NCBI GenBank assembly: GCA_003132865.1
Contig: PKYZ01000330.1
Location: 270 to 11,528, forward strand
DNA from: Bryobacterales bacterium
GTDB taxonomy: Bacteria; Acidobacteriota; Terriglobia; Bryobacterales; Bryobacteraceae
Direction of reading: 5' to 3'
Length of the DNA stretch: 11,259 nt
Shown piece after piece: positions 1-11,259 of the stretch. A program made the translations under genes and the position numbers. How positions within the stretch are numbered: the stretch's first letter is position 1; the number at the start of each line of letters is the position of its first letter. The notes beneath the pieces are model-generated. The model searched no databases. It saw nothing but the letters and a program-made list of their open reading frames with translations, and was not told where the DNA came from.

Positions 1-1062
1 CCGGTGGCTCTGGGCGAAGTCGGCGGCATCCCCAGCCCTGCCACGCTGAAAGAGCAGCCCAAGTACACCTGGTTCATGACCTGGAGCGAGTTTATCGAGA
101 TGAGCAACCCGCTGGAGACCGTGCGCGCCGTCTACGATGACGCGCACGCGTTGAGCCGCGACGACCCACGCATGTCGCAAGCCCTGGCGGCGATCCGCAA
201 AGCATCGGCCGCCCCCGATCCGCAATTGGTGACACCAGAACCGTTGCCGGCGGCCAAGGAGTTACTGGCTAAGTTGTACCGCACAGCCGGCCAGGGCATC
301 TTGAGCGGCCAGGATACTGCGGCAGCGACGCAGCGAGTTTTCGAGGTCACGGCCAAGTATCCCGCGATATATGGCGCCGATCTGGCCGAGCCCGGCGCCC
401 AGGCGGTCGTCGACGAGGCCACCAGCCAGTATCGGAACCACGCGATTGTCACGTTGAGCTGGCGCCCCGCGCGCCCCACCGACGAGGAATCCGGCAAGCT
501 ATCGGACTTTGAGTGGAAGGAATTGCTGACGCCCGGCAGCCGCCTCTTCGAGCGATGGAGCGCTCAGGTGGACGCTGTCGCGGGCTATCTGAAGCTGTTG
601 CAGGACGCCGGTGTGCCGGTGCTGTGGCGGCCGTATCCGCAACCGAATAGCGCCAAGTTCTGGTGGGCCGGTCACAAGGCGGAATCGGCCGCGCTGTACC
701 GGCAGTTGTTCGATCGCCTAGTGAAGCATCACAAACTCCGCAACTTGGTCTGGGTGTGGAACGCCGGCGCGCCCGGATTCGGCCCCGATTCGCCCGGCCA
801 GTATGCAGATTACTTTCCCGGTCTCGAATATGCCGATGCGCTGGCGGTGGATCTCGGCAATACGCCGTTTTCGTGGCGCCGCGACGCGGAGCTGGCCCGA
901 TTCGCGGTCGGCAAAGTGATTGGCCTGGGCCTGGACGGCTGGGTGCCGACTAACGCTATGCTGGACCAGCCCACGCGCTGGGCTTGGTTTCTGGCATCTG
1001 GCATCGACCAGCCGGACTCCTTGCGCGCGTTGTACGCGAACCCGCGCGTGGTATCGCGCTGA
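1..1062 (+). CDS. Tandem GH26 beta-mannanase-like protein, 5' end outside the window
   Basis: The frame is open through base 1, so this is the 3' part of a longer gene; counting here starts at the GTG at base 4. Residues 1-55 match the end of a first GH26 (beta-1,4-mannanase family) catalytic domain, including the nucleophile strand LGEVGG with Glu at residue 5, followed by YTWFMTWSEF. From about residue 75 a second GH26-like domain begins (LLAKLYRTAGQGILSGQD, IVTLSWRPARP, LLTPGSRLFERW, VPVLWRPY, NLVWVWNAGAPG) and runs to the stop. In GH26 the acid/base Glu sits in an RPxHEMNG..FWWG motif. Here the motif reads RPYPQPNSAKFWWAG, with Gln at residue 213. At the expected nucleophile the protein has GLDGWVP, with Leu at residue 310. 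The second domain therefore looks catalytically dead and may bind glycan or act structurally. The family call is strong; the substrate (mannan or another beta-glycan) is inferred. The upstream signal peptide cannot be seen. Confidence 0.85.
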   Translation, partial: PVALGEVGGIPSPATLKEQPKYTWFMTWSEFIEMSNPLETVRAVYDDAHALSRDDPRMSQALAAIRKASAAPDPQLVTPEPLPAAKELLAKLYRTAGQGILSGQDTAAATQRVFEVTAKYPAIYGADLAEPGAQAVVDEATSQYRNHAIVTLSWRPARPTDEESGKLSDFEWKELLTPGSRLFERWSAQVDAVAGYLKLLQDAGVPVLWRPYPQPNSAKFWWAGHKAESAALYRQLFDRLVKHHKLRNLVWVWNAGAPGFGPDSPGQYADYFPGLEYADALAVDLGNTPFSWRRDAELARFAVGKVIGLGLDGWVPTNAMLDQPTRWAWFLASGIDQPDSLRALYANPRVVSR

Positions 1063-1085
1063 GTTCTGTACTGAAGAATTGTGGG

Positions 1086-1121
1086 GCAGACCTCCAGGTC
1101 TGCGTGGGTCCTCCAGGACCC
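1086..1121. repeat. Two adjacent near-perfect hairpins sharing a CTCCAGG core
   Basis: Bases 1086-1103 form a palindrome with 8-base arms (GCAGACCT / AGGTCTGC) around CC. Bases 1106-1121 form a second one with 7-base arms (GGGTCCT / AGGACCC), also around CC. They lie between the GH26 stop (1062) and the ribosome binding site of the next gene (1128). No T-tract follows, so a classic intrinsic terminator is not supported. The similar cores and different stems suggest a dispersed palindromic repeat or an RNA processing/stability element. Structure is seen directly; role is inferred. Confidence 0.6.
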
Positions 1122-1139
1122 GCTCTGAAGGAGGCAACT

Positions 1140-1466
1140 ATGATAAGAGTTCGATCATACGCGGCAGTCAGCCTGTTCCTAGTAACAACCGCAGCAACCT
1201 ACGCCCCACAAAACATCCTACAGACTCAAGTGCTGGCCAAAGAGCGCCAGGAATTGGACTGCCTGAAGAACGGCAACTACGCGGAGTTCGCCAGCCTGCT
1301 GGCCGACGACGCGGTGTTCGTCGATACGCACGGCCCCGCGGGCAAACCGGAGATCGTTAATGATACCGCGGAGTTCCGGCTCAACGACTACACCATGGAC
1401 GACGTGAAGTTCGTGCAGCTCTATACAGCCAGGAGACTTCAACACGATAACTTGGAGGTAATATGA
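1140..1466 (+). CDS. Short exported DUF4440/SnoaL-like (NTF2-fold) protein, apparently C-terminally truncated
   Basis: The ATG at 1140 was chosen because AAGGAGG lies at 1128-1134 and the product starts with a signal peptide (MIRVRSYAAVSLFLVTTAATYA, residues 1-22). Residues 31-92 look like the first half of a DUF4440/SnoaL-like domain: a helix with KERQELDCLKNGNYAEFASLLADDAVFVD, then a beta segment VKFVQLY. Family members normally continue for another 40-60 residues with beta strands. This one ends at residue 108 after a non-matching tail, ARRLQHDNLEVI, so it seems cut short. Its TGA overlaps the next ATG (ATGA, 1463-1466), which implies translational coupling with the TolB-like gene. The family call is moderate and no enzymatic role can be assigned. 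The rest of the domain was not found in the other frames. Confidence 0.6.
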   Translation: MIRVRSYAAVSLFLVTTAATYAPQNILQTQVLAKERQELDCLKNGNYAEFASLLADDAVFVDTHGPAGKPEIVNDTAEFRLNDYTMDDVKFVQLYTARRLQHDNLEVI

Positions 1467-2599
1467 TGCGTACTCACTATATCGTCACAGCGTTGGCCTG
1501 TCTCGCGTTCCCGGTCTATGCCGCGCCCGCCGCGGCGCCGCTCGGAGTCTTCGAAGATCATACCGACGTCGGCACTGTCCTGCATGCCGGCTCCGCCGAG
1601 TACGACGCGTCTAAGCGGACCTACACTATCGCCGGCAGCGGCGAGAACATGTGGTTCGCCGCGGACGCGTTCCAGTTCGTGTGGAAGAAAGTCTCCGGCG
1701 ACATCACGCTGACGGCGGACATTTCGTTCATCGGCTCCGGCGGCGAGGCGCACCGCAAGGCCGTACTGATGATCCGTCAGAGCCTGGACGCGGATTCTCC
1801 GTACGCCGACGTGGCGCGCCATGGCGACGGGCTGACCTCCTTGCAGGCCCGCGACGAAAAGGGCGCCAACACGAGTGAAATCCAGTCCGCCATGAAGGCG
1901 CCTGCGCGGGTGCGCATCGCCAAGCGTGGCGATTACGTCTACATATGGGTGGCGGCCGAGGGTGAACAACTCCAGTTCTCCGGAGGATCGATGCGAATCC
2001 CGATGCACGATCCGTTCTACGTGGGCATCGGTGTCTGCTCCCACAATAAAGATACGGTGGAGAAGGCCGTATTCTCCAATGTCGATATGACAATCGGCGC
2101 GCCAACCAAAGCCACGCCGCCAAAATTGTACAGCACCCTGGAGACTGTTCCGGTTTCAGGCGACCGGCGCGTGACTTATGTCACTCCGGGCCGCCTGTCG
2201 GCGCCTGTCTGGACCGCCGACGGCGCTGCGCTGGTCTTCCATCGCAACGGCCACATGGAAAAGATATCGGCGGCCGGGGGCAAGCCGGAAATCGTAGAGG
2301 CAGCTAACAACAACGCCAGTGAGGAACAGTCGCTCGACGGAAAGTTGCCGTCCGACGGCTTCCGGAATTGCTTCCCTCACATCTCGCCGGATGGGCGGCA
2401 AATCGCATTTCTGTCTTTCGCGGGAGACATAGCTGGCATCCCCGAAGACAAAGACGTAATGCTGCGCCTCCTGTCGCTCAAAGACGGCAAGGTGCGAGTG
2501 CTGGCGAAGTTCGTCGGAGGGCGAGGCAGCATGGATGCGCCCTCCTGGTCGCCGGACAGCCGCCGTTTGGCCTTCGTCAGTTATCAGTGGATTCCGTAG
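1463..2599 (+). CDS. Secreted TolB-like beta-propeller (PD40) protein with N-terminal jelly-roll domain
   Basis: The protein of 378 residues opens with a signal peptide (MMRTHYIVTALACLAFPVYA, cleavage expected near residue 20). Residues about 25-215 look like a DUF1349/concanavalin-like jelly roll (AGSGENMWFAADAFQFVWKK, DITLTADISFIG, FYVGIGVCSH, FSNVDM). Residues about 225-378 hold WD40-like/PD40 blades: APVWTADGAALVFHR, HISPDGRQIAFLSF and APSWSPDSRRLAFVSY. It probably acts in the periplasm or outside the cell in sugar or polymer binding; proteins of this layout are often labelled TolB-like or 'biopolymer transporter' without experimental support. GGAGG at 1454-1458 precedes the ATG at 1463; a second ATG follows directly at 1466. 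It overlaps the upstream DUF4440-like gene by 4 bases and ends 8 bases from the convergent xylanase gene, with no visible terminator hairpin between them. The three visible blades are few for a closed propeller, but the ending looks natural. Confidence 0.8.
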   Translation: MMRTHYIVTALACLAFPVYAAPAAAPLGVFEDHTDVGTVLHAGSAEYDASKRTYTIAGSGENMWFAADAFQFVWKKVSGDITLTADISFIGSGGEAHRKAVLMIRQSLDADSPYADVARHGDGLTSLQARDEKGANTSEIQSAMKAPARVRIAKRGDYVYIWVAAEGEQLQFSGGSMRIPMHDPFYVGIGVCSHNKDTVEKAVFSNVDMTIGAPTKATPPKLYSTLETVPVSGDRRVTYVTPGRLSAPVWTADGAALVFHRNGHMEKISAAGGKPEIVEAANNNASEEQSLDGKLPSDGFRNCFPHISPDGRQIAFLSFAGDIAGIPEDKDVMLRLLSLKDGKVRVLAKFVGGRGSMDAPSWSPDSRRLAFVSYQWIP

Positions 2600-2607
2600 C
2601 TGCCCAC

Positions 2608-4377
2608 TTATTGGACCGCCAGTGTGATGTTGGATTGGCTGCTGGCCCCGTTCATCGTGATGACCAGCGGCTGCGCTCCGGATGCCCCTTGCGGAATCTG
2701 AACATTCACCTGCATCACACCGTTGACCAGCCCCGGCGAAGTGCCGGCATACTGCACGGTGGCTGCGACGCCTCCCACCGTAGCCGTGGGAGTCACTGCC
2801 TGATGTTGAATGCCGGTGGCCAGTGCTCCGTCCGCGCCGCCGGGATTGGTCACCCCGCCGCCAGTTGCAAACACTTGTACGACGCTTCCCACAGCAGCCG
2901 GATTGGACGCGGAGTTGAGGCTGTTATCCTGGTTCAGAATCGCGCCCGGTCCAGAGCCTGTGGAGTTCTGCGCGAAGATCGCGGGGGCAGTCTGCGCCAC
3001 CAGTAAAGTCTGCGGACTCGACATCACGCCGTTGTAACTGTATTGAATGGTCGTGGTGTTATGACCCGCCACGCCGAACGGCACGATCACGCTGCTCTGG
3101 TTGACAAGCGCGTAGACGATCGGCGCGGCCACACCATCGAAGAATACCTGCACGCCGCCGATCGAGTTCTTCAGGATTCCGCCTGAGATCTCGAGCGGAG
3201 TCAGGGAAACCGGCCCGGCATTCGCGCCGAAGATCGTGACGATTTCGCCGGGGGCCACAACGCCGCCTTGGTAGCCGGCCGCGTTGGCGATGCCACTCCC
3301 CGAAAACGAGGGCGGCGTGCCTGTCAACGCCTGCTGGATAGACGCGTAGGCCGGTTTAGACTGGTAGTTCGCATCGAAGGGCAGCGCCGCGCCGTAACCA
3401 GGAAAGGCGCCGGGTATCCACGAATACTTGTCCGTGAAGCCCCACGTCTGGACCGCGCTACAGCCGGGATGTTTGATACAGACCGAAACGATATCTTGGT
3501 AGCGCTGCGCCTGCGCCGCCAGGTCGTTGGCGGAGGCGTTACCATTCGCATCCACCGGAATGCGCACGTCCAGTTCGGTGAAGTGCACCTGCAGGCCGAG
3601 CGCGATCAGGCGCACAACGTTGGCCTCCAGTCCGGCCGGCGAGACATAGCTGGGATCGGTGGTGATGTGTAGCTGCAGACCTACACCGTTAATCGGCACA
3701 CCGCGCGCGAGCATGCCCTGCACCAGGCTGTACATGGCGTCTGACTTGGGGTTGTTATTGGCGTCCTCCACGCTGTAGTCGTTGTAGAAGAGCAGCGCGT
3801 TCGGATCGGCGGCGTGCGCCCAGCGGAAAGCCTGATCGATGTATCCCGGACCGGAGAGCCCGATTCCCGGCTGGTTGTACCAGATCGAGTCGCGCAGTCC
3901 GCTGCCATCGTCGGCCAGCGCTTCGTTCACCACATCCCACGCGAACACCTGACCCTTGAAGTATCCGACTACCTGCGTGATGTAAGTCTGCAGCAGCGTG
4001 TAAAGCTGGCTGGGCGTGAAGTTACCGTTGGCCAGCCAATCCGGATTGTAGGCGTACCAGCACAGATTGTGGCCGCGAAGTTCCATGCCTGTGGTCTGCG
4101 CGAAGCTGACCAGAGTATCGCCCGGCGTGAAGTTGAAGACGCCCTGGGTAGGCTCGATCGCCGCCCACTTCATTTCGTTCTCGGCCTCGATCATGCTGTA
4201 CTGCTGCGCCAGGGTGGCGGCGTAGGCTGCATCGCTGGCGATGTATGCCGTATCGACGGCCGCTCCCATAAACACACCGCGCTGGTAGCCAGAGTCGCGC
4301 AAGGTCTGCGCCAGTGCGCTCGCAAGCGAGAGCAATAGGAGAGCGAGTAAGATCCTCATCGATCGGTAATGTATCAC
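2608..4377 (-). CDS. Secreted GH10 endo-1,4-beta-xylanase with TIGR03437-type C-terminal domain
   Basis: Hydrolyses internal beta-1,4 bonds of xylan outside the cytoplasm. Numbering from the GTG at 4377: signal peptide about 1-24 ([17 protein letters not shown]), then a GH10 catalytic barrel about 25-352. It carries RGHNLCW (101-107), the acid/base motif WDVVNEAL (Glu152), the nucleophile motif HFTELDVRI (Glu268) and the barrel-end [10 protein letters not shown] (311-320). All GH10 catalytic landmarks are present. Residues about 360-589 start with [20 protein letters not shown] and contain [25 protein letters not shown] and MQVNVQIP. This is the hallmark C-terminal domain of many secreted Solibacter proteins; its function is unknown. 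The GTG start overlaps the upstream SDR stop (GTGA) and has an AAGGTGG-like site before it. The ATG at 4359 would give a more compact signal peptide but has no clear ribosome site. It is the last gene of the minus-strand run. Confidence 0.92.
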
Positions 4378-5147
4378 TTGGCATCCACCTTCGCCTGCAT
4401 CCGCCGCATGCCGCGCAGCCAGCGATCGTAATCGTTCGCCTTGCGGCGCAGATATTCGCCGACCTCCGGGTGCGGCAGGATCAGGAAGCGCTCTTCGGCC
4501 AAGCCCGCCACCACTGCTTCGGCGACCTGCTCGGGTTCCAGCGCTCCTTCCAGCAGGAAGCGGCCCGGCCCCTGTTCGGCCTCCGCGAGCATGTTGGTGC
4601 GCACGCCCTGCGGGCACAAGCAGGACACCCGGATGCCCCGGTCGCCGTAAGTCACCGACAGCCATTCGGCCAGCGACACCGCCGCGTGCTTGGTCACGGC
4701 GTACGGAGCCGAGCCGACCTGTGTGAGCAGACCGGCCGCCGAGGCGGTCTGCAACAGGTAGCCTTCGCCGCGCGCCAGCATGCCCGGCAGTACCGCGCGC
4801 GCGGCATACACGTGCGCCATGAAATTGATGCCCCAGATGCGCTGCCAGCCGCTGTCGGATGTCTCGACGCCGCCCTCCATGGCGATGCCCGCATTGGAGC
4901 AGAACAGATCGATCGCGCCGAACGCCGCTGTGGCGCGCTCCACCAGTTGGATGATTTCGGCTTCGCGGCTCACGTCCGTGCGAACAGCTAGCCCGCCAAT
5001 TTCGCGCGCCACCTGTTCGGCGCCGGTGCTATCCACATCGGCTACGACCACGCCACGCGCACCCTCCGCGGCGAACCGCCTGCACAGTGCGCGGCCGATG
5101 CCGCTCGCGCCGCCCGTCACCACCGCGATCTTATTCGTCAGATTCAT
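4374..5147 (-). CDS. Short-chain dehydrogenase/reductase (classical SDR, NAD(P)-dependent)
   Basis: A cytoplasmic oxidoreductase of 257 residues, full length for a classical SDR. The Rossmann cofactor motif TGGASGIG is at residues 11-18, and an acidic residue (Asp37 in VVVADVD) at the end of beta-2 favours NAD over NADP. CSNAG (83-87) replaces the usual NNAG. The catalytic set is Asn108, Ser136, Tyr149 and Lys153 (YAVTK). The substrate cannot be read from the sequence. The gene starts inside the stop of the acyl-CoA dehydrogenase (ATGA, 5144-5147) and its own stop overlaps the xylanase GTG. Next to an acyl-CoA dehydrogenase, a hydroxyacyl or alcohol substrate is likely (inference). Confidence 0.9.
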
Positions 5148-6358
5148 GCCGTGCCCACATCGTATTTTCGTAACTCCATCTTGGCGACGGCCTCGCGATG
5201 CACTTCGTCCGGGCCGTCCGCCAGGCGCAGTGTGCGCGCGCCCGCCCAGGCATGCGCCAGGAAGAAATCGTCCGCCACACCCGCGCCGCCGTGGGCCTGT
5301 ATCGCGCGATCAAGCACCCGCAAAGCCATATTGGGCGCGACCACTTTGATCATGGCGATCTCTGCTTTGGCGGCTTTGTTGCCCGCCACATCCATCATGT
5401 AAGCGGCCTTCAAGGTGAGCAGCCGCGCCTGCTCGATCTCCATGCGGGAATCGGCGATTTCGGCGCGCAGCGTGCCGAATTCCGACAGCTTCCGTCCGAA
5501 CGCCACGCGCGATTGCGCCCGCCGGCACATCGCTTCCAGGGCCCGCTCCGCCAGGCCGATCAGCCGCATGCAATGGTGGATGCGTCCCGGTCCCAGGCGG
5601 CCCTGCGCGATTTCGAAGCCGCGCCCTTCGCCGAGCAGCATGTTGGAGGCGGGCACGCGCACGTTGTCGAAGACCACTTCGCCGTGGCCGTGCGGGGCAT
5701 CGTCGTAACCGAACACGGGCAACATGCGCTCGATGGTGATACCAGGCGCGTCCATCGGCGCCAGGATCATGGCTTGCTGCTTGTGCCGCGGCGCCTGCGG
5801 GTCCGTCTTGCCCATGAAGATGGCGATCTTGCAGCGCGGGTCGCCCGCGCCGGAAGACCACCACTTGCGCCCATTCAGCACATACTCGTCGCCGTCGCGC
5901 ACGATGCTGGCGCAAATGTTCGTGGCATCCGACGAGGCCACCGCCGGCTCCGTCATGCAGTAGCACGAGCGGATACGGCCCTCCAGCAACGGTACCAGCC
6001 ACTGCTGTTTCTGCTCCGGGGTGCCGTAGCGCGCCAGCACTTCCATATTGCCGGTGTCTGGCGCCGAGCAGTTGCACACCTCGCCCGCCATCGCCACGCG
6101 CCCCATAATCTCGCAGAGCGGTGCGTACTCCAGGTTGGTCAGGCCGGCGCCCCATTCGTGGTCCGGCAGGAACAGGTTCCACAACCCGGCGGCGCGGGCT
6201 TTGGGCTTCAGTTCCTCGATAATGGGGACCGGCTGCCAGCGGTCTCCTTCGGCGATCTGCCGGTAGTAGAGCGGCTCGTTCGGGTAGATGTGCTGGTCCA
6301 TGAAGGCGATGAGCTTCTGCTGCAGTTCCTGGACCTTTGGGGAATACGCGAAGTGCAT
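5144..6358 (-). CDS. Acyl-CoA dehydrogenase, ACAD10/ACAD11-like subgroup
   Basis: An FAD-dependent enzyme introducing an alpha-beta double bond into an acyl-CoA. The protein of 404 residues is family length: N-terminal helical domain ([20 protein letters not shown]), a beta domain with [14 protein letters not shown] (132-145) and [14 protein letters not shown], and a C-terminal helical domain with [12 protein letters not shown] and QAHGGAGV. Where medium-chain enzymes have their catalytic Glu (YEGTSQIQR), this one has ADGPDEVHR with Asp381, as in the ACAD10/11-like group. The ATG at 6358 was preferred to a TTG at 6376 because homologues usually begin at this point; the ribosome site is weak for both. 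It is first of three genes with 4-base overlaps (then SDR, then xylanase). The first two could form a short fatty or hydroxy-acid degradation unit; the xylanase is probably only co-transcribed (inference). Confidence 0.92.
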
Positions 6359-6437
6359 TCCCGGATTGTCACGCAAAGCGGGGCCGGATGCAAAGGGCCA
6401 CGCCGGGACCAGTTTGCTGTGGTCTATGATCTATAGA

Positions 6438-6454
6438 GGATCGTCAGGCGATCC
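6438..6454. promoter_or_regulatory. Inverted repeat in the divergent intergenic region
   Basis: GGATCG and CGATCC, 6-base arms around TCAGG, lie between the minus-strand acyl-CoA dehydrogenase start and the plus-strand broken gene at 6476. A TATGAT sequence (6425-6430) just upstream could be a -10 box for the plus-strand gene, although no convincing -35 is seen. The repeat could be an operator or the start of a leader hairpin. Only the symmetry is seen directly. Confidence 0.3.
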
Positions 6455-6475
6455 CGGCGCAAGAGGAGTTTTCCG

Positions 6476-7118
6476 ATGGAGTTCAAATTGTTCGGCCCTG
6501 GTGGTTCTCCGAGCAGCCACTTTCAGCGTGGGAGGTGCTTGCGAATTGGTTTCTAACAACCAACGATTTTGACAGCGAGCAGGCCTCACCGGCCGTGGCG
6601 GCCAGTACGCTCTTGCCCGAGCAGTTCACTGAGAGCGCCGATGTTCTTAAGTACATTCTCGAATCCTGGTACATGTATGGCTGCAGTTGCCGGAGATCCA
6701 ACGCGACCTCCTGCTTCTGAATTGCCCTCGGGAACGCATCGAACGGCTCGGATCCCTATTGGAACGTCTGCGCCCAGCGCGCGACCGTGTCTACCGCGAC
6801 TACATGCGCTTCGACCACGAGAATGCGGTACTTCCGACCCTGGAGGACATAAATGTGGTTTGCGACTTGCACCCTGTTTTCGAAGACACAGTGTATCCCA
6901 TACCGGAGGCGCTCCCGGTGCGGCACACCAAGCTTCTGGGGTACAGTTACATGGTGCTAATGGTCTTCACCGAGGATTTTGGCGGAAGAAAGCAGCGGCT
7001 CGGCTTTCAGATGAACGAAGCGCAACTAGCGGATTTTCAGGCGGCGATCCAGCGAGCCAGAGAACAACTCGATATACTAAAGGCGAGCACTAATGCAATA
7101 TCCACTCAAGAGCACTAA
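6476..7118 (+). pseudogene. Hypothetical protein gene broken by two apparent single-base deletions; COMM-like C-terminus
   Basis: A good ribosome site (AAGAGGAG, 6461-6468) precedes the ATG at 6476, but that frame stops after 26 codons. Protein-like sequence continues in a second frame (WWFSEQPLSAWEVLANWF ... DVLKYILESWYMYG) to about 6680, and then in a third frame (LQLPEIQRDLLLLNCP ... REQLDILKASTNAISTQEH) to the stop at 7118. Adding one base near 6498 (CCC run before TGGTGG) and one near 6680 (GG before CTGCAG) would restore a single protein of about 214 residues. Both sites could be shortened C or G runs, so sequencing error is as likely as true decay. The restored protein would have a helical N-terminal half. 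The C-terminal part has VLMVFTED followed by LGFQMNEAQLADFQAAIQ, a beta-beta-helix layout that resembles eukaryotic COMM domains (inference). Residues 6687-7118 alone form an uninterrupted stretch of 143 codons. Confidence 0.55.
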
Positions 7119-7309
7119 AGGAATGGCGCCGTCCAAAGGCCCGCCGGCGAAACGGGCTGGCATCCGCGAACGAATCTCGTCGAAATGGAGCCGCCCAGCT
7201 CAGAGACGTTAGGCGAGACGAGCGCCGCGGTGCCCGTTCGCACGCGCGGCACTCGGCCTTCGTGGGCGGCCGTAATAGCATCAGCGCGTCGGGTGTTTAT
7301 AGCCCAGGG

Positions 7310-7585
7310 ATGGGCCACGATGCACAGGCGATTGTTGACCAGGTGAGAGCGCTGGACTCCGATCAGCTCCTTGACCGCTATCATGAATTGGTCGACAAAC
7401 GCCTTCAAGGGACGCTGGATTTCACCGAATTGTTGGAACTGGAACGAATCGAGGCTCGCCTCGATACCGAAGACCAGGACGACGCCGCCCGCCTGACTAT
7501 CCTCCAAGACGATTGGCGTCGCGAACGCAACGAACTGGTGGCGTCGATCGAGCACTTGCTGGCTCGCTTCAAGGCTGCGAGCTGA
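7310..7585 (+). CDS. Small helical protein upstream of HNH endonuclease, function unknown
   Basis: The protein of 91 residues is predicted almost wholly helical and strongly charged (LLDRYHELVDKRLQGTLDF, LLELERIEARLDTEDQDDAA, RNELVASIEHLLARF). It has no membrane segment and no catalytic motif that I recognise. The ATG at 7310 was chosen over a GTG at 7262 because the extra residues look non-native; the ribosome site is poor for either. It ends 6 bases before the GTG at 7592 that would open the full-length HNH gene in the same frame, so the two look like one operon. The 191 bases before it (7119-7309) hold no gene that I can support. A partner or regulator of the HNH protein is possible (inference). 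Confidence 0.6.
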   Translation: MGHDAQAIVDQVRALDSDQLLDRYHELVDKRLQGTLDFTELLELERIEARLDTEDQDDAARLTILQDDWRRERNELVASIEHLLARFKAAS

Positions 7586-7591
7586 CCGGTC

Positions 7592-7657
7592 GTGTCCCGA
7601 TTTGTCCGGCAGGAAAACCCGCCGTAATTCGACGATTGCACGAAGTATCTGCCATTT
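7592..7657 (+). other. Apparent lost 5' end of the HNH gene, interrupted by TAA at 7625
   Basis: In the same frame as the HNH gene, from a GTG at 7592, the sequence reads MSRFVRQENPP, stop, FDDCTKYLPF and then runs straight into the HNH core VRRDFRQRCAYC. This looks like a natural N-terminus for this type of HNH protein, broken by one nonsense codon (TAA, 7625-7627). Possible explanations are a point mutation, a sequencing error, or a real later start at GTG 7658. Confidence 0.45.
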
Positions 7658-8260
7658 GTGCGTCGAGACTTCCGTCAGCGTTGCGCCTACTGCGAACGTA
7701 CTGAAGCCGTGCTCGGCGGAGAGGAGTTCTTTGAGATCGATCACTTTCGTCCGGTCTCGAAATTCCGCGAGGAAGCGACGCACTACCCGAACCTTTATTA
7801 CTCTTGCGGCAAATGCAACCGGCACAAGGCGAATACATGGCCTTCGGATGACTTGATTGCAAAGGGGTTCCGCTTTGCCGACCCTTGCCAGGAAGACATG
7901 TATGTCGACCATTTGCAGGAGATGCCCGACGGCAGGTTGCAACCTCTGACTACTTGCGGTCGCTACACTCGCGATCACATCCGCCTCGACCGCCGCGACC
8001 TGCTTAATTGGCGTCAGCTTAGGCGCCAGAGGGCGCAGGAATTGGAGACGTTCGCGCGGACGGCAACTCGTCTCGAAGCTCTGTTATCGGGCGAGCCTGA
8101 CCCCGTCAAACAGAGTCAAATCCGGGAAGAGATCGAGGCCTTGACCGCTCGGATCGCAGTCGACCAGCGTCTCTTCTTGCAGAACAACCTGAACGTACCC
8201 TTTCCATTCCCAGGCCCTCGGCGAGGGGGCGCTGTCTCCACGCGCGTGCGATTGCTGTAG
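7658..8260 (+). CDS. HNH endonuclease with zinc-knuckle CxxC pairs
   Basis: Predicted metal-dependent nuclease of the beta-beta-alpha-metal HNH type. Numbering from the GTG at 7658: the first knuckle is CAYC (Cys9, Cys12), the catalytic strand EIDHFRPVS has Asp28-His29, and the second knuckle with the metal helix is YYSCGKCNRHK (Cys50, Cys53, Asn54, His56). Residues 66-116 form a family-specific extension (FRFADPCQEDMYVDHLQ, GRYTRDHIRLDRRDLLN). Residues about 117-172 are a long charged helix likely to form a coiled coil. The catalytic core is intact, but this start leaves only eight residues before the first cysteine; the normal N-terminus seems to lie upstream behind a stop codon at 7625. 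HNH proteins of this kind occur in mobile DNA and in defence systems; no ATPase or other known partner is next to it. The last 20 residues (PGPRRGGAVSTRVRLL) look low in conservation. Confidence 0.75.
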   Translation: MRRDFRQRCAYCERTEAVLGGEEFFEIDHFRPVSKFREEATHYPNLYYSCGKCNRHKANTWPSDDLIAKGFRFADPCQEDMYVDHLQEMPDGRLQPLTTCGRYTRDHIRLDRRDLLNWRQLRRQRAQELETFARTATRLEALLSGEPDPVKQSQIREEIEALTARIAVDQRLFLQNNLNVPFPFPGPRRGGAVSTRVRLL

Positions 8261-8337
8261 ATTGCCGAAATCTGGGACTTGGCCAGCGCGTGGCGAATCG
8301 GAGTACCCTGCTCGCCACCCGTCCGTTGCCGCGTGCG

Positions 8338-8538
8338 CTACACCCCCGCTAGTTTGCGCCCCTGCGACCAAAGCGCGGTGGCTTCCTCCACGACCTTGCG
8401 GCTCTCGTTGTAAATGATCCTCAGGCGGTCTACGATGTCTTTGGTCGCCGCCGCAAGATAGCCTGTTCGATCCGCAACCCGCTGGGTAACCTGCTTCGCC
8501 GCGTACCAGCGATCCCGCTTCCGCCGGGTCAGTCTCAA
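8338..8538 (-). CDS. Small helical hypothetical protein, possibly the 3' part of a frameshifted gene
   Basis: A 66-residue helical, charged product (KRDRWYAAKQVTQRVADRTG, DIVDRLRIIYNESRKVVEEA). The only start in frame is a TTG at 8538 without a clear ribosome site. A neighbouring frame just upstream on the same strand reads FPELPIEWVETD before joining near 8525. One extra C in the CCC at that point would explain a break, which suggests that the two parts were once a single protein. The family is not recognised. The flanks, 8261-8337 and 8540-8662, hold nothing else I can support. It could still be chance coding in GC-rich DNA. Confidence 0.35.
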   Translation of the reverse strand: MRLTRRKRDRWYAAKQVTQRVADRTGYLAAATKDIVDRLRIIYNESRKVVEEATALWSQGRKLAGV

Positions 8539-8662
8539 CCCATTCTATCGGGAGCTCTGGAAATTCCCGCGAAGAGTGGAACCGGGAGCGTGACACGCGA
8601 CACAGACAAACCACAGCCTCAGTGCGCACACGCACAAGGCCCGTCTTGGAGTGCGAGATCCC

Positions 8663-8908
8663 TTACGCTTCCTTCTTCTTCAACAAGTGATCGTTGTCCT
8701 TGATGAAAGTCTTGATTTGTTCCGCCGCGGCCAGCAGTCTTTCCCACTGCTCTTTGTAAAGCGTGACCGGGAAGCGACCCAGTCCGTAGACGGACACCCC
8801 GCCTTTCTCGCTCACGCGGACGGAAATCTGGCCCCGTCCCGGCTTCTTCAGCGCCTCATTCTCGGCGCGCAAACGTTCCAGTTCAGCTTTCAGATCTTCA
8901 TCGGCCAT
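8663..8908 (-). CDS. Small conserved coiled-coil protein, function unknown
   Basis: An 81-residue product from the ATG at 8908 (MADEDLKAELERLRAENEAL). Residues 3-24 form a leucine-heptad coiled coil. A compact beta/helix part follows, with VRVSEKGGVSVYGLGRFPVTLYKEQW and a lysine-rich helical tail (IKTFIKDNDHLLKKKEA). I recall this combination of a coiled coil plus 'SEKGGVSVYG-GRFPVTLY' as a recurrent small bacterial protein without known role. An ATG at 8920 would add MLSC; neither start has a good ribosome site. It follows the secreted protein gene (stop at 8926) on the same strand, so co-transcription is likely. Confidence 0.75.
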   Translation of the reverse strand: MADEDLKAELERLRAENEALKKPGRGQISVRVSEKGGVSVYGLGRFPVTLYKEQWERLLAAAEQIKTFIKDNDHLLKKKEA

Positions 8909-8925
8909 ACATGACAGCATATCGC

Positions 8926-10089
8926 TTATCGGCAGGCGTAGGAATAAGCGGAATTCAGGTAGCCCCGCAGCTCCCCCGTCCGGGCTGGATCTGCCTGGGC
9001 GCTCGCAATCGTCGCGTTCAAAATGGGAACCAGGAAGCGCCTGTACTTGTCGAGCGCCGGTTGATCGTGCATTCGAAACGCCTGCTCGATGGCCCTCTCG
9101 GTCGCCGGCGTGACCAGTTCCAGGCGCCCCACAAACACCCGCACCGTGTTCGCTGGCGCCGGGCTAATCGCCAGAGGCAAAATGGCGCTCACCGCTGGGG
9201 CAGGCAGTATGTACAGAAGCCGGCTGCCTTCTTCGAACCAGGAATTCCGCCAGGTCGCAATCATGGCGCGCGCTTCATCCACGTACAGACCGCGTGCGAC
9301 GAGGATGTCCTCCAAGTCCTTGAACATGGAGTCCGCGGTCGCCGTCAGCGGCGGCGGGTCCACCAGCGCTTGATCGCGCAACCCGCCAGAGACGCGGTAA
9401 CCCAGCTTCCCGCCGCGGCTCTCGATCAACATGACGCCGGGAATCTCTTCCGTCCCGAGATTCCGCACCAACACCTTACCTTCCGGAGTCAGGCGGGCCG
9501 CGATTGGCAGCGCTGCTGAAGACACGCCGCGATAGAACAGGAATTTCTCATCTTGGTCGCCGCCCGGCGCCTTCACTCGCAACGGTGTGGCCCCCGTGCT
9601 CCGTGCGGCGTAATAGTGGTTATCGCCGTTGCCCGACGGGAACGCCGCCCGAGAGCCTGGCAGCAGGCGCACTTCATTCCACCGAATGCTGCCATCGGTG
9701 TCGGTTCGCTCCACGGCGCTCGCGTGCGGATACCACTCGGTGATTATTCCCTTCGCGAACGACACGTTCACCGAAACAGTTGTTTCGCGCGGACTGTAGA
9801 AATACAGCACCGGCGTCTCCATGCGCACCGTCTCGCTCAGGCCGCATTTGAAGTTTTCATCGCGGAAGTGCTCGACGAACGCCGGCAAATCCGTCGATCC
9901 CCTAAGCGGCACCCACGCGACGGCCTGCCCGTCAGGACCTGCGACGGAAGTGAAGGTGCCCCATTCATGTACGGTGAGTTCGCCCGCCGCGCCGCCGTGC
10001 TCCACGACCGGCGAACTGCCCACGGAAGAAATCGCCAGGCAGGCGGCCATGGCCCCCGCGGCCAAGAGTCGCAATGCTTTTCCCGACAT
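8926..10089 (-). CDS. Secreted protein of the uncharacterised HEWGTF type
   Basis: A 387-residue protein with a signal peptide (residues 1 to about 25, KALRLLAAGAMAACLAISSVGSS). The mature part opens with ELTVHEWGTFTSVAGPDG (37-54) and WVPLRGSTDLPAFVEHF. It continues with beta-rich stretches (METPVLYFYSPRETTVSVNV, ITEWYP, FLFYRGV) and ends in a helical region (RFLVPILNATIASAQADPAR). I recognise the HEWGTF...TPVLYFYS pattern from unannotated secreted proteins of Acidobacteriota and Planctomycetota; the function is unknown. The start is secure: an AGGAGGG ribosome site sits 6-7 bases upstream of the ATG, and a TATAAT box further upstream. It is likely first of a two-gene unit with the coiled-coil gene downstream. 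Confidence 0.75.
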   Translation of the reverse strand: MSGKALRLLAAGAMAACLAISSVGSSPVVEHGGAAGELTVHEWGTFTSVAGPDGQAVAWVPLRGSTDLPAFVEHFRDENFKCGLSETVRMETPVLYFYSPRETTVSVNVSFAKGIITEWYPHASAVERTDTDGSIRWNEVRLLPGSRAAFPSGNGDNHYYAARSTGATPLRVKAPGGDQDEKFLFYRGVSSAALPIAARLTPEGKVLVRNLGTEEIPGVMLIESRGGKLGYRVSGGLRDQALVDPPPLTATADSMFKDLEDILVARGLYVDEARAMIATWRNSWFEEGSRLLYILPAPAVSAILPLAISPAPANTVRVFVGRLELVTPATERAIEQAFRMHDQPALDKYRRFLVPILNATIASAQADPARTGELRGYLNSAYSYACR

Positions 10090-10094
10090 CCGGA

Positions 10095-10118
10095 CCCTCC
10101 TGATGTTGCTCTATTATA
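10095..10118 (-). promoter_or_regulatory. Promoter -10 box and ribosome site of the HEWGTF gene
   Basis: On the minus strand a perfect TATAAT occupies 10118-10113 and AGGAGGG occupies 10101-10095, right before the ATG at 10089. No good -35 lies 16-18 bases upstream of the -10 box. The untranslated leader would be only about 15-20 bases. The region is shared with the divergent Rieske gene. Confidence 0.5.
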
Positions 10119-10197
10119 GCGCTCACCGCGCCGAAGTTTCCCAAAACTTTACAAATTGGTCACACTCCGGCGCGCCCGTCTGTCTTATTGTGAAAGC

Positions 10198-10680
10198 ATG
10201 CCGGTCACGGACCAAAGCGGCGCGCAAACCGAGGTCACGCGCAGGAAGTTTTACATCGCCATGATCTACGGCCTGTGGAGCCTGATTGCCGCGGCGCTGT
10301 CAATCCCGGCTGCGATCTATCTCCTCATTCCGCCCAAGCTCCGCAAGATGCCGGAGTGGGCCGAGGCAGGCGACGTGTCCAACCTCGAGCCGCGCGTGCC
10401 GGTCGAGATGGTCTTCCGCCAGAACCGCGTGGATGGATGGAAAATCCAGAGCGAAAAAACCACGGCCTGGGTGGTGAAGCTTTCCGCGGCCCAGGTGGTG
10501 GCCTACGGGCCGCAATGCACGCACCTAGGCTGCGCCTATCATTGGGACGACAACCGCAACCACTTTCTGTGCCCCTGTCACACGTCCATCTTCGGCGTCG
10601 ATGGCGCGCGCAAACGCCGGGCCATCGTCCGAAAGCAGGCGAAGGCGATGCCACTCACGGTGCGCGCCCCAAGCTTGTAA
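10198..10680 (+). CDS. Rieske [2Fe-2S] protein of a bc-type complex, C-terminus replaced
   Basis: Membrane-anchored electron carrier, the iron-sulphur subunit of a quinol oxidising bc complex. From the ATG at 10198: a Tat-like twin arginine motif TRRKFYI (14-20), a membrane anchor at about 18-44, and the cluster motifs CTHLGC (107-112) and CPCH (125-128). These give ligands Cys107, His109, Cys125 and His128, with Cys112 and Cys127 for the disulphide. The fold is normal through HTSIFGVDG (128-136). After that, family members have a loop such as GPAPRPL and a final strand, about 30 residues in all. Here the sequence becomes ARKRRAIVRKQAKAMPLTVR, which is simply the antisense of the DUF899 gene. 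The protein is therefore truncated and carries an unrelated tail; stability of the cluster is doubtful. No cytochrome b gene follows. The ribosome site before the ATG is weak (GAAAG). Confidence 0.85.
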   Translation: MPVTDQSGAQTEVTRRKFYIAMIYGLWSLIAAALSIPAAIYLLIPPKLRKMPEWAEAGDVSNLEPRVPVEMVFRQNRVDGWKIQSEKTTAWVVKLSAAQVVAYGPQCTHLGCAYHWDDNRNHFLCPCHTSIFGVDGARKRRAIVRKQAKAMPLTVRAPSL

Positions 10681-11046
10681 CGTATCGACCGGCGCGCGTG
10701 ACGCGATGACGAAGTTCGCGCGCTGCGTTATGTGCGGCGCAATACCGTTGAATCCGTCGAGCCAGAGCGAGCACATCGGACAGAAGCTATCATCGCCTGC
10801 CCAGTACATCAGGTGATAGAGAATCAAGTATGGCTTGTTCTCTGCGAACAGCTCGGATAAACGAACGCGATTGCTGCCTTCGATGAACTCGTAGTCGGGG
10901 ACGACCGGACCCGGCGGCAGGTTGCGCCGCATCGCCGCGACCTCTTCGATGCGGTCGCGCAGTTCGATCTCCGCGCCGCGCAGACGATCGCGCGATCGAC
11001 GATACGCCTCGTCGGCGCCGGGCATTAAAAGGCTTGAATCCGCCAT
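10525..11046 (-). CDS. DUF899 thioredoxin-like protein, C-terminally truncated
   Basis: A 173-residue product matching the first two thirds of DUF899 (thioredoxin-fold, possible redox or detoxification role): a helical start ending ELRDRIEEVAAMRRNLPPG, then VPDYEFIEG, VRLSELF, YLILYHLMYW and the cysteine pair FCPMCSLWLDGFNG (Cys89, Cys92), then ITQRANFVIASRAPVDTLQAW and WHRLRLLSDDG. Family members run about 50-80 residues further. Here the native part ends near residue 146-154, and the rest (VTGAQKVVAVVVPMIGAA) is the antisense of the Rieske cluster region. Its TAG lies within the Rieske CTHLGC codons. The start is supported by AAGGAA upstream and a strong promoter at 11077-11105. Related genes are often controlled by ArsR-type regulators, which fits the palindromic operator seen here (inference). 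Confidence 0.8.
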   Translation of the reverse strand: MADSSLLMPGADEAYRRSRDRLRGAEIELRDRIEEVAAMRRNLPPGPVVPDYEFIEGSNRVRLSELFAENKPYLILYHLMYWAGDDSFCPMCSLWLDGFNGIAPHITQRANFVIASRAPVDTLQAWGAHREWHRLRLLSDDGPAFARAIDAEDGRVTGAQKVVAVVVPMIGAA

Positions 11047-11076
11047 GTCATTTCCTTTCGATCGTACGGTCGTCCG

Positions 11077-11105
11077 AATATAGTGACCTAAAGGTCAGGT
11101 GTCAA
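11077..11105 (-). promoter_or_regulatory. Near-consensus sigma70 promoter of the DUF899 gene with palindromic operator in the spacer
   Basis: On the minus strand TTGACA (11105-11100) and TATATT (11082-11077) are separated by exactly 17 bases. The spacer contains a perfect palindrome, TGACCT / AGGTCA with two central bases, at 11084-11097. Transcription would begin near 11070, giving a leader of about 24 bases. A repressor bound there would block the polymerase directly, so the gene is probably repressed and inducible. The regulator gene is not in the window. Confidence 0.75.
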
Positions 11106-11112
11106 GCGCAGT

Positions 11113-11186
11113 AATGTCACTGAGCGCAACCATTGTCACCCTGAGCGCAGCTATTGTCACCCTGAGCGCAGTCGAACGGCGACAAT
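11113..11186. repeat. Tandem copies of a dispersed palindromic repeat (GTCACCCTGAGCGCAG)
   Basis: Three units follow each other: 11113-11131 (two bases shorter), 11132-11152 and 11153-11173. The last two share ATTGTCACCCTGAGCGCAG at a period of 21 bases. The third unit continues into TCGAACGGCGACAAT, so ATTGTCACC (11153) and GGCGACAAT (11178-11186) form an inverted repeat with one mismatch. I recall GTCACCCTGAGCGCAGTCGAA as a widely dispersed intergenic repeat in Acidobacteriota and other phyla. Past it, 11187-11259 holds no gene I can support, although a plus-strand frame reads WGWPYPSGGGWIWHLDGHPF up to the edge and a minus-strand frame is also open. Confidence 0.7.
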
Positions 11187-11259
11187 GGGGATGGCCTTAC
11201 CCCAGCGGGGGCGGATGGATCTGGCATCTCGACGGCCATCCGTTCACAGCATTTTTCAA

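Follow-up and report, generated by a model that had tools for sequence, protein, structure and literature searches.

The window, by which we mean the whole 11,259-nucleotide stretch analyzed here, is very probably a chimeric metagenome contig composed of Bryobacteraceae and Eremiobacterota DNA, and the collision of two genes near its right end is most likely an assembly artefact with no real biological feature behind it. A Bryobacteraceae genome would give bases 1 to about 10586–10608, and an Eremiobacterota genome near MAG palsa_1485 would supply the sequence from 10587 onward, the two parents being joined at a short word of at most 22 bases that would fit a Rieske gene read forward and a DUF899 gene read in reverse (Table 1). 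Each gene would end where its own genome stops, and its open reading frame (ORF) would then run by chance through the antisense of the other gene to a stop. The join was probably made by an assembler or in a chimeric library molecule rather than in a cell. The comparisons described below establish the two origins (on the right at the DNA level, on the left at the protein level from two genes), the exact base at which the right piece begins and the presence of intact genes elsewhere.

In PMC8171044, a contig counts as chimeric if parts of it that do not overlap hit different species, and high rates of such contigs are given for benchmark assemblies. Separate parts of the window do match different species, the right part at the DNA level and the left part at the protein level. 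In PMC7299287, chimeric contigs result from genomes linked by shared k-mers, and the species concerned are closely related. The window resembles the chimeric contigs of PMC7299287 and PMC8171044 in its split species matches and would also resemble them in a join at a short word fitting both sides, but its parents belong to different phyla instead of close species, and its word has 22 bases or fewer.

Table 1. Coordinates of the features discussed in the text (positions of the window)
Feature	Position	Strand	Remarks
Left piece, Bryobacteraceae (Acidobacteriota) type at least for the last two genes	1–10586	.	True 3' edge within 10586–10608
Gene for a 387-aa protein, divergent neighbour of the Rieske gene	8926–10089	-	99% identity to P0241
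Rieske ORF	10156–10680	+	Family part 10198–10608; remainder to 10680 would read foreign DNA
Truncated Rieske gene, menaquinol-cytochrome c reductase iron-sulfur subunit	10198–10608	+	PF00355, identity to P0121, loss of tail
DUF899 ORF	10525–11046	-	Family part 10588–11046, the 5' part of the gene; extends to 10525 in putative foreign DNA
Junction	10587–10608	+	At most 22 bases fitting both sources: IFGVDGA forward, RAIDAED reverse
Right piece, Eremiobacterota type	10587–11259	.	660/673 bases identical to L001
Patch of differences from L001	10711–10796	.	All 13 differences; other 587 of 673 positions identical
Intergenic repeat, dispersed in Eremiobacterota genome	11114–11190	.	22 further matches in G001, 3 in G003

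The Rieske ORF on the plus strand and the DUF899 ORF on the minus strand overlap tail to tail over exactly 156 bases (10525–10680). Both depart from their families near 10587–10608, where the same 21 bases (10588–10608) read IFGVDGA in the Rieske frame on one strand and RAIDAED in the DUF899 frame on the opposite strand. The original prediction had described this 156-base overlap, which the ORF coordinates bear out, and had placed the break at 10585–10611, right to within a few bases. It had also held that each protein loses its conserved C-terminus, in agreement with the early-ending Pfam matches, the family alignments and the comparison of tails presented here. The profile alignments that it proposed as a check place the last matched positions at 75 of 88 for PF00355 and at 147 of 224 for DUF899. 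The outcome named as speaking against it, a C-terminus normal for its family in either protein, was not found: the tails of relatives are longer, and the window tails are unlike them.

The Rieske ORF contains both CTHLGC and CPCH, which we take to be the Rieske cluster-binding motifs, and its nearest solved structures by sequence are those of cytochrome b6f Rieske proteins (PetC), aligned as far as the region in which the Pfam match ends. The Pfam match to PF00355 is over the cut-off and covers profile positions 22–75 of 88, whereas it reaches 87 of 88 in the intact relatives P0121 and P0122; by this profile test, the C-terminal proline loop and the last strand of the Rieske domain are absent from the window copy. 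NCBIfam gave matches to the Rieske ORF solely below the family cut-offs. Aligned with 12 close relatives, the protein is family-like to IFGVDGA and thereafter diverges from VVSGPAPRPLDRYETKVENGKLLLGPL. Its closest listed relative, P0121, is 95% identical across 86% of the query and is among the three of 120 listed relatives with the exact IFGVDGA string. Past IFGVDGA, the window tail has 23 residues, against a median of 35 (range 0–58) in the best 120 of 2269 relatives, 111 of which carry GPAPR. The window protein is without the GPAPR proline loop; the exact string is missing in nine of the 120 listed relatives, including P0182, P0204 and P0214, whose sequences stop or shift before reaching it. 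The window Rieske and DUF899 tails score at most 21 against the tails of their relatives (best 120 each), whereas the tail of the top Rieske relative scores a median of 142 (lowest 0) against those of the other relatives. Compared with the Bryobacteraceae Rieske iron-sulfur subunits P0121 and P0122, the window copy agrees up to IFGVDGA, CTHLGC and CPCH included, but is without the GPAPR loop and the residues after it. As a separate observation, P0204 ends in RSEEHTSELQS, presumably a translated Illumina adapter that was probably left in its metagenome contig.

A similar loss is seen in the DUF899 protein, whose PF05988 match spans profile positions 9–147 of 224 (Pfam) and falls short of a full-length domain; in the Eremiobacterota locus L001, the match extends to 211 of 224. 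NCBIfam returned no match to this ORF at E 0.001. When aligned to 12 of its close relatives, the protein is family-like to RAIDAED, a string found exactly in 22 of 120 listed relatives, and then diverges from ADGNPDSTIVV. Five DUF899 loci read through to 214–229 aa, the loci left out of the 12 being L035, L036, L038, L039, L041, L042 and L043. A tail motif was present in 83 of 120 listed relatives, but the pattern proved too narrow and tail lengths were used instead. Past RAIDAED, 20 residues remain in the window, against a median of 74 (range 59–85) in the best 120 of 337 relatives. Length does not by itself distinguish normal from shifted tails: P0005, for example, has a long tail that is shifted. 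Against the tails of the other relatives, that of the top relative scores a median of 324 (lowest 16). Compared with the Eremiobacterota DUF899 protein (4925–5614 of L001), the window copy is the same from residue 1 to RAIDAED, with CPMC in the window and CSMC in L001, and is without the last third, which L001 has.

The origin of the right piece is best defined by L001 (PMUK01000205.1, Candidatus Eremiobacterota bacterium isolate palsa_1485, genome G001), which matches on its minus strand, ungapped, from exactly 10587 to the window's end. The boundary is sharp: positions 10582–10586 are all mismatched, and 10587–10710 are all identical. DUF899 is whole in L001, with 229 aa. Over the same stretch, two further loci are similar to the window, L002 at 86% and L003 at 77%, and both matches end at 10587–10589; L003 belongs to Candidatus Eremiobacteria. 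The title of L002 (JAJPHJ010000097.1) names Proteobacteria, while its genome G002 falls in the phylum of G001, and the title looks mislabelled. Besides these three DUF899 loci, the scan of genome_contigs recovered a fourth locus, L004, a distant Rieske relative whose best segment reached 37%. A DUF899 match is present in 37 of 118 genomes sampled from G001's phylum, with best identities of 97% (G001 itself), 91% and 90%. Organism names were available for 11 DUF899 relatives among the best 120 of 337: six Cybelea, two Eremiobacteraeota, one Baltobacteraceae, one Babeliales and one Binatia. We take the first three names, nine of the 11, to be of Eremiobacterota type.

When G001 was searched with the whole window (40 of 142 candidates scored), the 23 matches listed consisted of one of 673 bases and 22 in the intergenic repeat, and none of the 23 lay in 1–10586. 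Within the window, this repeat shows a 21-base unit in two copies, CTGAGCGCA...TTGTCACC. The 13 differences from L001 are confined to 86 bases, a clustering as tight as which did not occur in 200000 random placements. Of these 13 sites, 5, 6 and 6 carry the window base in the three further relatives compared, L033, L034 and L037, respectively, and L001 alone differs at four. Strains may have been mixed in the assembly of the window or of the MAG, or the patch may be a genuine conversion tract.

The taxon assignment of the left piece draws on two genes at the protein level, the Rieske gene and its divergent neighbour. All six named Rieske relatives (best 120 of 2269) are Bryobacteraceae, as are P0270 and P0271, the named relatives listed for the neighbour. 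Compared by eye, relatives of the two proteins lie on contigs of equal size in eight pairs (23790, 10161, 30492, 648878, 111136, 15514, 10606 and 2285 bases), equal size being weak evidence for short contigs, since P0027 (DUF899) and P0258 (neighbour) also share 2255. GPAPR is kept by all eight Rieske members of these size-paired contigs, from which we infer that the gene pair is probably conserved and its Rieske gene normally whole. Two short matches to the left piece, both inside the Rieske gene, were found in G002 (10369–10421, 80%, E 1.3e-5) and G004 (10516–10580, 78%, E 5.7e-7). Rieske searches around G004, G001, G551 and G376 gave at best 42% identity over most of the query (G004, residues 7–136); higher identities there, such as 54%, span just ~40 residues.

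The original prediction had also remarked that the expected cytochrome b gene is absent downstream of the Rieske gene. No such gene is present in the window, but the 579 bases left 3' of the Rieske ORF, occupied by the DUF899 ORF and the sequence upstream of it, could not have shown one. In the distant relative L004, cytochrome b genes directly follow Rieske on the one flank examined, which supports this gene order in general, not specifically for Bryobacteraceae.

At the junction, the 22 bases match L001 exactly, and the left parent fits at the residue level, as in P0121. In a codon simulation, the prior chance that all seven junction codons agree was 0.01, with a mean of 17.8 of 21 bases identical. 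Given this prior and the rarity of IFGVDGA and RAIDAED, the word common to both parents does not exceed 22 bases and may fall below that length. The 22-base word was not found in viral_contigs, nor were any relatives, and a plasmid search with 10087–11259 gave no match. Base composition does not mark the join: G+C is 0.59–0.63 in the windows around it, and the pieces are too alike to be separated. Four words of 8–10 residues from both chimeric tails occurred in none of 360 proteins, 240 of which were top-listed relatives of the two proteins (for Rieske the best 120 of 2269, for DUF899 the best 120 of 337).

The original prediction had left the choice between a deletion and a chimera. The chimera is the half that stands, with an Eremiobacterota right piece whose DUF899 gene is intact elsewhere and a Bryobacteraceae left piece. 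A deletion within a single genome, taking the 3' ends of the Rieske and DUF899 genes together with the intervening DNA, would account for both genes being cut at one point; it would also leave one genome on both sides, whereas the flanks indicate different phyla. It was rejected, and we regard it as extremely improbable. Scarcely any credence is left for the reading that each of the two proteins has a C-terminus typical of its subfamily. No supporting point was found for it, and it is refuted by the longer tails of relatives: 111 of the 120 listed Rieske proteins carry GPAPR, at least 59 tail residues follow RAIDAED in all 120 listed DUF899 proteins, and the window tails resemble those of no listed relative. 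A very recent, real illegitimate recombination, inserting Eremiobacterota DNA into a chromosome of Bryobacteraceae, or Bryobacteraceae DNA into one of Eremiobacterota, and breaking both genes, would look identical in its two-phylum composition and could have been guided by the short shared word. Outside the patch, however, the right piece equals a present-day Eremiobacterota MAG at 587 of 587 bases, intergenic repeat included, so that a transfer would have to date from the very recent past. It would, moreover, knock out the Rieske subunit, and the absence of the chimeric-tail words from all 360 proteins argues against it as well. Such an event is very unlikely, if somewhat less so than the deletion. 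If true, an interphylum transfer at a chance short identity would have inactivated the Rieske subunit of a Bryobacteraceae cytochrome bc complex.

Several points count against an assembler chimera. With large-k assemblers, a word of 22 bases or fewer makes for a short join; the prior chance of agreement at all seven junction codons is low; IFGVDGA is exact in just three of 120 Rieske relatives, albeit including P0121; the G001 search scored 40 of 142 candidates; and G002 and G004 each gave one short match inside the left piece. Short shared sequence at a join is expected from template switching too, and the contig alone does not separate this from an assembler join. A chimeric library molecule, produced by PCR template switching or ligation, is a sub-case of the chimera, with which its probability overlaps. 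A single molecule would give the coverage of about one read pair, which assemblers usually drop, and we consider this origin unlikely, though the least so of the alternatives weighed here.

For the chimeric contig that we favor, the practical consequence is that it should be cut at about 10587–10608 before use. Left uncut, it would lead to misassignment of its last 0.65 kb at the phylum level and to the spurious recording of a lost Rieske subunit and of overlapping genes; the collision itself would carry no biological meaning beyond marking the contig as one to cut.

Other genes of the left piece include those for the polysaccharide-degrading enzymes GH26 and GH10, at 1–1062 (plus strand) and 2608–4665 (minus strand), with a PD40 protein encoded between them at 1463–2599. 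An HNH endonuclease-like protein (PF01844) is encoded at 7658–8260 on the plus strand, beside a 107-aa ORF (7262–7585) without a Pfam match.
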